Shown here: positions 26,305 to 29,863 of the stretch, piece after piece | How the letters are laid out: every line of letters begins with the position of its first letter | Position numbering within the stretch: position 1 is the stretch's first letter | Assembly: GCA_018268375.1 (NCBI GenBank) | Contig: JAFDWS010000006.1 | Span: forward strand, 355,115 to 419,114 | Source of the DNA: Armatimonadota bacterium | GTDB taxonomy: Bacteria; Armatimonadota; Fimbriimonadia; Fimbriimonadales; Fimbriimonadaceae | Length of the DNA stretch: 64,000 bases | Direction: 5' to 3' | Program-made: the position numbers and the translations under genes | Notes under the pieces: generated by a model | What the model saw: the letters and a program-made list of their open reading frames with translations, nothing else | Database searches by the model: none | What the model was told of the DNA's origin: nothing

Positions 26305-26591
26305 TGGTCGTCGGTGTCCTCGTCCTTGAACTCGGGCTGATGGGATGCCATTCGCTCAAGGACAAACGCAGTATCCTGCGCAGTCTCGTCGAGAAAGCGA
26401 GGCACGATTTCCACGTCTCCATCGCCGAGGTGGGCGACCACGAAATCTGGAGTCAAGCCGTGGTCTGCGCCTCCGTTCCGAGCACCGATGCTGCCCACGC
26501 GCTGGAGGTCCTACAAAGCGTTGAGCGCTTGTTCGGCGAGCATCACGCCGTGGAGATCACGAACGCCTTTCGCGATATGTGGCGGCCCTAG
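26304..26591 (+). CDS. DUF503 (YlxP-like) protein
   Basis: The 95-residue protein matches the DUF503/YlxP pattern: VVGVLVLELGLMGCHSLKDKRSILRSLVEKARHDFHVSIAEVGDHEIWSQAVV. In Bacillus the homologue lies in the nusA-infB operon, and its function remains unclear. Here it is coupled to doxX by a one-base overlap rather than to translation genes. It shares CTAG (26588-26591) as stop codons with convergent hemW. Confidence 0.88.
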   Translation: MVVGVLVLELGLMGCHSLKDKRSILRSLVEKARHDFHVSIAEVGDHEIWSQAVVCASVPSTDAAHALEVLQSVERLFGEHHAVEITNAFRDMWRP

Positions 26592-27703
26592 GCGAGCTCG
26601 AGGGCAACGTCAGAACAATAATGTCGGCCCTTAGTGGTCAACCGCACGAAAGAAAGCCCCGGCTCGACAAGCCCCTTTCGCTCCAAGTGCTCGATGGTCG
26701 CGACGTCCAAAGCAACCGCGTCTTTCGGGAGCCCCTCGTTGAGACGAATGCCGAGCATGATGCGCTCGAGCCTCAAAGTCGTCTTGTCGAGGTGTTCTGA
26801 GTCGCACCACAACCCTTCCCGCGAGTCAACCGCCTGGCAGTAACGGTCGGGATGCTTCGTGTTCGTGTAGCGCGTCCGGTCGCCGCTTGGGCCCACGCAG
26901 CCCACCGCTCCCGGGCCGTAGCCCACGTACTCTTCGCCCCTCCAGTAGCAGAGATTGTGCCGACATTCCTTTCCGGGCTTGGCGAAGTTCGAAATCTCGT
27001 ACTGGTGATAGCCACGGGAGTCACAAACCTCGCACGCGGTGTCGTACATCTCGGTCTGGACATCGTCGTCAGGCAGATCCAACATTCCCCTGACGTGCAG
27101 GCGGTAATAGCGGGTGTTCGGCTCGATCGTGAGGCAGTACAGGCTGAGATGCTCGGGCTCGATGCGCATCGCCAAGTCAAGGTTACGCTGCCAGGCTGCC
27201 GCGGACTGGCCGGGAAGCCCGAACATGAGATCCAGGTTCAAATTGTGAAATCCTGCAGATCGAGCAGCGTCCACCGCACGCCCGATATGGCTCGCCTCGT
27301 GAACACGGCCCAAGCGAATGAGGTCCGACGTGTCGAAGCTCTGGGCACCGAGGCTGATCCGGTTGAACCCCATTGACCTCAGTTCATTGAATTTTGGGAT
27401 ATCGACGGTGCCTGGGTTTGCCTCGCTCGTGATCTCGCAGCCTTCGATCGGAGGATGCGCGCTCAGCACGGCCTCAAGGAGTCGCCGGGACTGCTCGGCG
27501 GCGATGAAGGTGGGAGTTCCACCCCCGAAGAAGACGGTCTTCGCCGGCCGGCCGCGGTGGGGCGATTGGTTGACCTCCTTGACCATGGCCGCGACCGTCC
27601 GTTCCACGATCTCGCCGTCCATCGCGTAGGAGTTGAAGTCGCAGTAACCACACTTGGACGGGCAAAACGGGACGTGCAGATAAACGGCGATGGGGTCCGA
27701 CAT
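26588..27703 (-). CDS. hemW: Radical SAM heme chaperone HemW
   Basis: HemW is a radical SAM protein related to HemN that binds heme and delivers it to apoproteins. The 371-residue protein has the cluster motif CPSKCGYC (CxxxCxxC), the HVPFC lead, the GGGTPTF glycine motif, ITSEANPGT, and QSFDTSDL with DLMFGLPGQS. The fourth Cys typical of HemN (CxxxCxxCxC) is replaced by Phe after YCDF, as in HemW. It starts three bases after argS on the same strand, so argS-hemW is probably one transcript. Confidence 0.93.
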   Translation of the reverse strand: MSDPIAVYLHVPFCPSKCGYCDFNSYAMDGEIVERTVAAMVKEVNQSPHRGRPAKTVFFGGGTPTFIAAEQSRRLLEAVLSAHPPIEGCEITSEANPGTVDIPKFNELRSMGFNRISLGAQSFDTSDLIRLGRVHEASHIGRAVDAARSAGFHNLNLDLMFGLPGQSAAAWQRNLDLAMRIEPEHLSLYCLTIEPNTRYYRLHVRGMLDLPDDDVQTEMYDTACEVCDSRGYHQYEISNFAKPGKECRHNLCYWRGEEYVGYGPGAVGCVGPSGDRTRYTNTKHPDRYCQAVDSREGLWCDSEHLDKTTLRLERIMLGIRLNEGLPKDAVALDVATIEHLERKGLVEPGLSFVRLTTKGRHYCSDVALELA

Positions 27704-27706
27704 GGG

Positions 27707-29863
27707 TCACATCTTCTCCGGTGCGCTCACGCCCAAGAGGTCGAAAGTGGCCTTCAAGGCGGTTCGGGCTGCCTGGCAGTACGCAAGGCGGCGCACGGTC
27801 GTTTCGGGGTCCTGCGGCTCGATGACCCGGCACGCATCGTAGAAGTGGTGGTAGGTCCGGGCAAGTTCTGTCGCGTAGGTGGTCAACCGGTTAACGGCAT
27901 AGTCTTCGGCGCACCGAAGAACCTCGTAGGGGAGGTCGAGGATCTTGAGGAGCAAGGCACGCTCCTTTGGATGGAGCGCTCCCGTACTGGAAGGCGCTGT
28001 TGGCGGGGCAAACCCAGCCTCTTCGGCCTTCCTGAGGACTCCGCAGATGCGCGCATGCGCGTACTGGACATAGAACACGGGATTCTCGTCGCTCTGCTTC
28101 GCGGCCAGGTCGAGGTCGAAATCAAACGTCGTGTCGTGGTTCCGCATGAGATAGAAGAACCGCGCCACGTCCTTGCCCGCTTCCTGCTTTTCTGCCGTCG
28201 TGCCCTCGGGCTTGACCATCTGCCCAATCTCGTTGACAAGATCGATGAGGGCGTAGATGTTCCCGTCGCGTTTGCGCATGGGAGCCGGCTTTCCGTCCTT
28301 AACGAACCTCACGAGTTGGAAGATCAGAACTTCAAGACGCTTGTCGCTCTCGGCTTTGGCCGCTTGGCACTTGTCACGCAGCGCAAGGTTCCCGCCGTAG
28401 AGGTCGCGTTCGGAGTCAGAGGCCCAGGCCCCTCCGACGGGGACGTCGGCGGCTACCCCTTCGGGCATAAGGTCAGCGGCGACGACGGCGTGGAGGCGGC
28501 CGATGTAACCGTGGTGGTCAGGCCCAAGCACCGTGATCAGCTTGTCAGCGTTTGCTGGCCGGTTGAACTTGTCCTCGTGGTAGGCGACGTCACTGGCAAT
28601 GTAGGTCAGGCGGCCATCCTTACGGCGCAGGACGCGGTCCATGTCATCGCCAAAGAGAGTGCTCCGCAGCCAGAGGGTGGCTGAGGTCTCTGAGGGGCTT
28701 GGTTCGGAAGCCGCTGCCTCGCCTGCAGTGGTGGTCGTGCCAGAAGTTGAGGAGGGGGTTGTGGGTGGATCATCCCCGTGTCCGTCTTCCTCCAAGACCT
28801 CAGCCTTGCCAACTTGGCTCTCGTGCTCGACCTCGGTCAGGACGCCGCCTTTTGCGAGCTTGACCTTCGTCCGCACAGGCTCATCGTCCGCCACACCTTT
28901 GTCCTTGAGTTTGCCGATGCACTGGTCGACTTTGCCGCTGTCGTGGAGGGACTGTTCGGAAAACCAGGTGTCGAAGGTGACACCGAAGGCTGCCAGATCT
29001 TGCCGCTGCTTGGCAAGCATCAGATCTTGTGATACGGACTGGTAGAAACTCAAGCCCAAGCTGGCCATCCTCTCACCAAACGCCTCTGTATATTTGACTC
29101 CGCTCCCGAGACACTGGCCTATCCATTCGAGAGAAGCGACGGTCTCGGAATCGAACCTGTGAGAGCCCAATGCCAGGACCCTCAACAGGGCCTTGGCTCC
29201 ATCGACCTGTAGTGTCTTCGCGGTTTCAGCGACATAGTCGCCTTTGTAGCCGTTCTCCGGGGCGGACTGACCAAGCACCATCGCCTTGACCGACTCCGCA
29301 AACAACCGCATCTGCTCGCTGTTCACTCCGTCGTTGATGTAGTACTCGCGGTGGACTTCGTTTCCTGCTGCCTGGAGCACGTTGGCCAGCGTCGAGCCAT
29401 AAGCGGCTCCGCGACCGGAGCCGATGGTGATGGGGCCGTTCGGGTTCACGGAAACGAACTCAATGTTGATCTTCGACCTTGGAGTGAGTCCGGATTGGGG
29501 CCGGGCGTAGTGACCGGCGTCGTCCAGCACCGACTGGCCGGCAGAACCCAAGACTGACTCCAAGAAACTTGAAACCGCGGAAGACTCGAGCGTGATGTTC
29601 ACGAAGCCAGGCCCAGCCACCTCCGCCTTGGTGAGCTCGGGGTCGGTGGCCAGTTCGCCTGCAAGCATCTCGCCCAATTCGCGAGGGTTTTTGCCAGCGA
29701 GTTTGACCGCCATCATCGCCCAGTTAGTGGCGAAATCACCGTGCTCGGGCTGCTTCGTGTCCATGACCTCCGGAGTCGGATAGTCAGCCACGGCCAACGC
29801 GCCACGGGACACGAGGCGAGCGATGGCGGCCTCGATCTTCCCGGCAACGACTTGGCGGAGCAT
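27707..29863 (-). CDS. argS: Arginyl-tRNA synthetase with altered HIGH motif
   Basis: It charges tRNA-Arg. The fold is clear: an N-terminal Add1 domain (PEHGDFATNWAMMAVKLAG), NIEFVSVNPNGPITIGSGRGAAYG, REYYINDGVNSEQM, FVKDGKPAPMRKRDGN and a DALR anticodon domain at the C-terminus. Two oddities stand out. The class I HIGH signature (normally HVGH after NPTGPL) reads TIGS at residues 146-149. A roughly 35-residue Thr/Ser/Pro/Glu low-complexity insert lies near residues 361-395, making the protein 718 residues instead of about 560-590. I chose ATG 29863 because TACCAT lies six bases upstream. ATG 29899 with a GGAAGGGG Shine-Dalgarno is the alternative. Confidence 0.92.
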   Translation of the reverse strand: MLRQVVAGKIEAAIARLVSRGALAVADYPTPEVMDTKQPEHGDFATNWAMMAVKLAGKNPRELGEMLAGELATDPELTKAEVAGPGFVNITLESSAVSSFLESVLGSAGQSVLDDAGHYARPQSGLTPRSKINIEFVSVNPNGPITIGSGRGAAYGSTLANVLQAAGNEVHREYYINDGVNSEQMRLFAESVKAMVLGQSAPENGYKGDYVAETAKTLQVDGAKALLRVLALGSHRFDSETVASLEWIGQCLGSGVKYTEAFGERMASLGLSFYQSVSQDLMLAKQRQDLAAFGVTFDTWFSEQSLHDSGKVDQCIGKLKDKGVADDEPVRTKVKLAKGGVLTEVEHESQVGKAEVLEEDGHGDDPPTTPSSTSGTTTTAGEAAASEPSPSETSATLWLRSTLFGDDMDRVLRRKDGRLTYIASDVAYHEDKFNRPANADKLITVLGPDHHGYIGRLHAVVAADLMPEGVAADVPVGGAWASDSERDLYGGNLALRDKCQAAKAESDKRLEVLIFQLVRFVKDGKPAPMRKRDGNIYALIDLVNEIGQMVKPEGTTAEKQEAGKDVARFFYLMRNHDTTFDFDLDLAAKQSDENPVFYVQYAHARICGVLRKAEEAGFAPPTAPSSTGALHPKERALLLKILDLPYEVLRCAEDYAVNRLTTYATELARTYHHFYDACRVIEPQDPETTVRRLAYCQAARTALKATFDLLGVSAPEKM

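Follow-up and report, generated by a model that had tools for sequence, protein, structure and literature searches.

A probable housekeeping arginyl-tRNA synthetase with TIGS in place of the HIGH signature in the Fimbriimonadaceae

The HIGH signature is the taught hallmark of class I aminoacyl-tRNA synthetases; it serves to recognise these enzymes and figures in arguments over what the first enzymes were like. What, then, is an arginyl-tRNA synthetase (ArgRS) that has lost both histidines of this signature: the working enzyme of its cell, a decaying or repurposed relative, or an error in the sequence? The case arose in a 64,000-nt stretch of an Armatimonadota genome of the family Fimbriimonadaceae (assembly GCA_018268375.1, contig JAFDWS010000006.1, positions 355,115 to 419,114; hereafter the window). 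The original prediction, made from the letters alone, had identified an ArgRS gene there in which a supposedly invariant block reads NPNGPITIGS, a surprising state for a housekeeping gene. The features concerned are the following.

27707..29863, minus strand: argS, arginine--tRNA ligase, 718 aa (P0001), assigned by its open frame, TIGR00456, Pfam domains and matches to solved ArgRS
29417..29446, minus strand: class I signature block NPNGPITIGS, residues 140-149, in which T146 and S149 replace the two His
28259..28279, minus strand: KMSKS-equivalent MRKRDGN, residues 529-535, including K531, placed by alignment of 45 ArgRS
28679..28783, minus strand: Thr/Ser/Pro/acidic low-complexity loop, residues 361-395, placed by pLDDT and loop-length comparison
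26588..27703, minus strand as argS: downstream neighbour, presumably a HemW-like radical SAM gene, named by recall from its sequence

The window argS opens with an ATG and runs as an uninterrupted 718-aa frame on the minus strand (translation 29863..27707), the plus strand of the same interval being interrupted by stops; an alternative in-frame ATG upstream would give 730 aa. Its identity as an ArgRS is supported by its sequence and its predicted fold. The whole protein scores 314.2 bits against the TIGR00456 equivalog (cut-off 261.65) and carries, in order, PF03485 (Arg_tRNA_synt_N), PF00750 (tRNA-synt_1d) and PF05746 (DALR_1), and the solved-structure sequences closest to it are ArgRS. The AlphaFold model (pLDDT 89.9, pTM 0.91) retrieved ArgRS at all of ranks 1-20 in a Foldseek search of the PDB, so that the predicted fold is that of an ArgRS. 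The PF00750 score is barely above its cut-off (25.7 vs 23.3 bits), which counts against reading P0001 as an ordinary enzyme. The canonical HxGH is indeed absent, T146 and S149 standing at both His positions (signature pattern match at G000:C9:384526-384560 of the assembly), and a helix predicted with confidence (residues 147-165) has the signature at its N-terminal end. The pairing of argS with the downstream gene, which we take to be HemW-like, is retained in genomes G001, G002 and G020; no hemW-like match occurred in a 13-kb stretch around argS of G063 or in a 9-kb stretch around that of G217.

P0001 keeps 37 of the 40 columns that are conserved at 95% or more in 115 ArgRS rows from outside the family; most family rows keep 37-40 of them, and one fragment keeps 29. 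The three departures of P0001, D157S, G465L and L695Y, count against an unimpaired enzyme. In the KMSKS-equivalent loop, K531 is conserved in 90% or more of 45 aligned ArgRS, and R532 and G534 are invariant; across a wider set of 151 rows the K531 column holds Lys in 113 and Thr in 38. Reportedly, an exclusive rule set out by Sekine et al. 2001 has ArgRS carrying either a HIGH-loop Lys or a KMSKS Lys. This rule fails in our alignment, where 35 of the 151 rows combine a loop Gly with Thr at the KMSKS-Lys column. Pairwise comparison by the NG86 method gave dN of 0.28-0.35 and dS of 1.5-2.5 against six relatives, a seventh being saturated, and the low dN relative to dS argues that the window argS is under strong purifying selection.

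The protein is also long, as had been predicted (by about 130 residues over the usual length). In the neighbouring family f5, ArgRS frames measured from stop to stop have 549, 552, 554, 558, 573, 604 and 656 aa; P0001 exceeds most of them by about 150 aa, and these residues are spread over four loops rather than held in one insert. Loop lengths were measured by regular expressions that left several rows unmatched, with three f5 rows measurable for the interval of the low-complexity loop. The loop before the FGVxFD block has 112 aa in P0001 vs 77 in f5, that before LWLRST 104 aa vs 39 in two of three f5 rows and 62 in the third, that after GPDHHGYIG 66 aa vs 27 (L006, L042), and that after MRKRDG 34 aa vs 18 in f5. 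The second of the P0001 loops consists of a conserved RTK.K.AKGG followed by an unconserved stretch rich in acidic residues, Pro, Ser and Thr. The Thr/Ser/Pro-rich insert foreseen near residues 361-395 was recovered, residues 361-388 forming the sole segment of P0001 with pLDDT below 50. Stop to stop, the frames of family argS measure 564-871 aa, leaving aside a 494-aa contig-end piece (L048). We infer that the long loops are lineage-specific surface padding and that the low-complexity loop is disordered rather than catalytic. They are not the cause of the changed signature, since an ArgRS of family f31 (genome G217) has TVGS in a frame of 566 aa.

How exceptional is TIGS among close relatives? 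The 85 genomes sampled from the window's family were surveyed with a DNA pattern open at both His codons, and the signatures were read by eye. Matches occurred at 80 places in 77 genomes, and T-[I/V]-G-S stands at 79 of them; the one differing place, T-V-A-A, is a second argS in the window's own assembly. The signature Ser is written with TCN codons in most genomes and with AGY in several, and the Thr with several codons. The pattern had no match in the other 8 family genomes, and none of these yielded a complete argS (nothing in 4, fragments in 4). A model search returned one argS locus each in the single-contig family genomes G010, G013, G020, G035, G063, G093, G102 and G105, and likewise one locus only in G217, which has TVGS and belongs to f31 outside the family. 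T[IV]GS is thus fixed in the family and borne by its only ArgRS, and we regard the TIGS of the window gene, as far as sequences can tell, as a family trait and not a mutation or defect. The loss of both histidines was therefore read correctly from the window, and the surprise attached to it gives way to a family norm.

Two irregular loci were seen in the course of this survey. The argS of single-contig G102 (G102:C1:2303785-2306197, L255) runs across three frames, with tblastn pieces in frames 3, 2 and 1, and the frame changes are perhaps sequencing errors or else real. Genome G015 carries two TVGS argS, one on C21 (L047) with an extra long loop and one on C6 (L048) cut by the contig end, which may be either a paralogue or the product of a mixed bin.

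The second argS of the window's own assembly bears directly on whether the window copy matters to the cell. It lies on another contig (C5) within a region of unusual composition.

G000:C5:371955-373613: second argS (P0002), 566 aa, reading TVAA; an ArgRS with neither His
G000:C5:1-529700: huge-phage-like element, ~0.53 Mb (L066, L243-L246, L067, L247-L250, L068, L251-L253, L056-L060, L006, L061-L065, L123-L125)
C5:529721-532100 (L125:9688-12100), C5:1-218 (L066) and C11:1-1053 (L271): join of element and host in groEL

From C5:1 to about 529.7 kb the GC content is 0.51-0.57 vs 0.60-0.62 beyond. This region encodes 61 tRNA genes, which serve 19 amino acids (all but Lys) and include a CUA anticodon, together with families for terminase (6e-24), portal (7e-38), tail, DnaB, DNA polymerase III-like protein, ribonucleotide reductase and RNA ligase, and with genes that we take to be DnaK-, DnaJ- and GyrB-like. 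We class the region as a huge-phage-like element. The assembly joins it to the host chromosome, and should the integration be genuine, this prophage would be of unusual size. At the join, groES and an adjacent small gene resemble the host (groES being 86-90% like that of the same genus), whereas groEL is only 66% like that of the window's family; reciprocally, contig C11 begins inside the cut host groEL, at 90-92% to the same genus. A crossover in groEL would explain the join, whether real, by homologous integration, or made by the assembler as a chimera. P0002 could not be traced to known phages: the 17 phage records and 86 plasmid records returned by tblastn all stay under 60% identity, and viral contigs scanned with the single protein gave no match.

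These observations allow the competing accounts of the window gene to be weighed. One account, very unlikely, makes it a paralogue that is decaying or non-canonical, while a second argS elsewhere does the work of the cell. A second argS does exist, could in principle serve the cell, keeps 40 of the 40 conserved columns and has the higher Pfam catalytic-domain score (47.2 vs 25.7 for P0001). Yet it sits among terminase, portal, polymerase and tRNA genes in a low-GC element, no such second argS was found in the same-genus genomes G001 and G002, and it too lacks both His, whereas the window-type gene is conserved and is the sole copy in complete relatives. The check for a second, canonical argS that the original prediction had proposed as decisive thus yielded a second copy but not a canonical one: its TVAA departs from HIGH even further than TIGS does. 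As this copy is also phage-borne, it gives no ground for regarding the window copy as dispensable. A pseudogene was likewise rejected, given the family-wide signature, the sole argS of complete relatives and dN far below dS.

We consider it equally improbable that P0001 is an ArgRS-like protein with a new job, such as a regulator or an amino-acid or other ligase, that does not charge tRNA-Arg. The loss of both signature His and the roughly 150 extra residues would suit such a protein, and NCBIfam does include ArgS-related non-enzymes; but against the model of one of these, the anticodon-binding protein NrtL (NF045898), P0001 scores 128 bits, far below the cut-off of 340, its anticodon and N-terminal domains are kept, and complete family genomes have no ArgRS besides the window-type gene. 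A sequencing or assembly error has a negligible probability: the assembly is incomplete (92.57%) with contamination of 3.71%, but the same residues recur at 79 of 80 independent family places with varied synonymous codons, which refutes it. The window argS is best read as a housekeeping ArgRS whose class I signature has been relaxed, akin to the TIGN of TrpRS, and very probably it is the chromosome's only ArgRS and would be active, essential and under purifying selection.

Nor is the block invariant outside the family, contrary to what had been assumed. The family, phylum and Chloroflexota counts all rest on the pattern NP[TNK]G[PS]..[GA].[GA]R, which leaves both His positions free and misses ArgRS such as NPVGP-HIGN, SVVN and the E. 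coli type. Across the phylum 143 of 291 genomes match, 66 of them outside the window's family; counted from the listed DNA, these 66 comprise 14 with both His, 38 with the second only and 14 with neither. TVGS recurs in families f31, f33 and f34, and a second branch of the phylum has TIGS or TVGS (G217, G226-G229). Reading whole proteins in the phylum adds SVVN, NVVN, AVVQ, LVVQ, SVPH, QIGN and HIGN. Among these, the ArgRS of f12, f13, f14, f16, f21 and f22 (L088, L090, L092, L093, L096-L098, L100) read SVVN, LVVQ, AVVQ or NVVN, and have lost the HIGH glycine too, a state more extreme than the TIGS of the window.

A scan of GTDB genomes for Ser or Thr at the first His position found at least 117 stretches, and all of the 80 loci that were read are ArgRS. 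Among the matches listed, the hosts include Chloroflexota, Patescibacteria groups, Omnitrophota, Bacteroidota and others, with TIGR in Chlorobiota, TIGN in Oscillospiraceae, TVAA or TLAS in Actinomycetota and SVGH in Desulfobulbales; exact TIGS stands at 4 of the 80 loci, all from Chloroflexota (L129, L170, L171, L180, among the matches listed). An even draw of 151 Chloroflexota genomes gave 68 pattern matches which, counted from the listed DNA, have both His in 22, the first only in 23, the second only in 4 and neither in 19, TIGS accounting for 4 of the 68 and lying within the last group. A single argS above cut-off was present in 15 of 15 checked genomes of the non-HIGH type. Such sole copies read TLAS in Frankia sp. 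AiPa1 (a RefSeq record not marked as a MAG) and SVGH in Desulfobulbus alkaliphilus DSM 24258, and each of four Chloroflexota genomes with TIGS has it in the sole argS above cut-off. With 19 of 68 Chloroflexota having neither His, and with genomes whose only ArgRS is of the non-HIGH type, HxGH is unusable as a membership test for ArgRS. By sequence comparison, HIGH loss in ArgRS extends to SVVN, LVVQ, TVAG and TVAA.

Duplicate genes also occur. Single-contig G129 has two complete argS (C1:3783122-3784834 and 7235709-7237442), one reading TVAG and the other of 601 aa with a higher model score, and G227 and G228 have two argS loci each.

The distribution of these signatures was followed on an ArgRS tree of 151 rows, a quick LG+G4 reconstruction in which 53 of 148 inner branches are under 80, and from which seven distant rows (of E. 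coli type or otherwise remote), frames below 480 aa and GTDB frames above 720 aa were excluded. The first position switches between His and another residue at least 6 times and the second at least 12 times, counted without direction on a sample biased towards Ser/Thr first; the 80 GTDB loci came from a pattern demanding Ser or Thr there, so the non-His share in the tree is not a frequency. TIGS or TVGS falls in three separated groups. The Chloroflexota TIGS enzymes are distant from those of the window's family, so that the signature arose separately or intermediates were lost. P0002 lies within the clade of the window's family (36 rows, 99% SH-aLRT).

How might such an enzyme work? In TyrRS, mutating either HIGH His lowers activity, which counts against a harmless replacement; the same source notes few contacts between HIGH and ligands in solved structures and puts the role of HIGH in the ATP-bound step (PMC5919687). 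In a LeuRS urzyme of 129 residues from Carter's group, AVGA is reported as the best variant, more active than wild type, while in full-length LeuRS the two signatures help each other, unlike in the urzyme (PMC10450160). P0001 would follow the two-step charging of tRNA-Arg common to ArgRS enzymes. The phosphates of ATP would be bound by main-chain atoms where the signature helix begins, T146 and S149 may add their hydroxyls, by analogy with the Thr and Asn of the TrpRS TIGN, and K531 and R532 of the mobile KMSKS-like loop would stabilise the transition state. More generally, we lean, with some reserve, towards the view that the HIGH histidines are catalytically dispensable in natural ArgRS and have been lost repeatedly, ATP activation proceeding through the loop backbone and the KMSKS-like Lys and Arg.

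The alternative raised with the prediction, that TIGS might be a known variant, is largely borne out by its spread among sequences; in the open-licence PMC literature searched, we found neither a description of natural HIGH variants in ArgRS nor a biochemical test of such an ArgRS. The surprise of the window gene itself is modest; of more interest is that ArgRS in nature have lost the HIGH histidines repeatedly. If these are indeed dispensable, ArgRS would be a natural experiment on the extent to which class I catalysis depends on side chains of the signature, and natural, full-length, HIGH-less ArgRS present as sole copies would be material on which class I compensation for the lost His can be tested. 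For annotation, a missing HIGH does not make an ArgRS inactive.

Among known systems, the closest parallel in a working class I enzyme is the TrpRS signature TIGN, which PMC10201369 equates with HIGH: there too Thr replaces the first His and a small polar residue the second, but TrpRS belongs to another aaRS subclass, is no family-level homologue, and has Asn at the second position vs Ser in P0001. With the ArgRS of TIGR00456, P0001 shares the three domains, the fold, the KMSKS-like Lys and the standing of sole family ArgRS; it differs in having TIGS rather than HxGH and in four enlarged loops, one of them disordered. The Chloroflexota enzymes have the identical four residues, also in a sole argS, but stand far apart on the tree. 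P0002, finally, shares with P0001 the family clade and the Thr at the first His position, and differs in its TVAA, its 566 aa without the long loops, and its place on a phage-like element.
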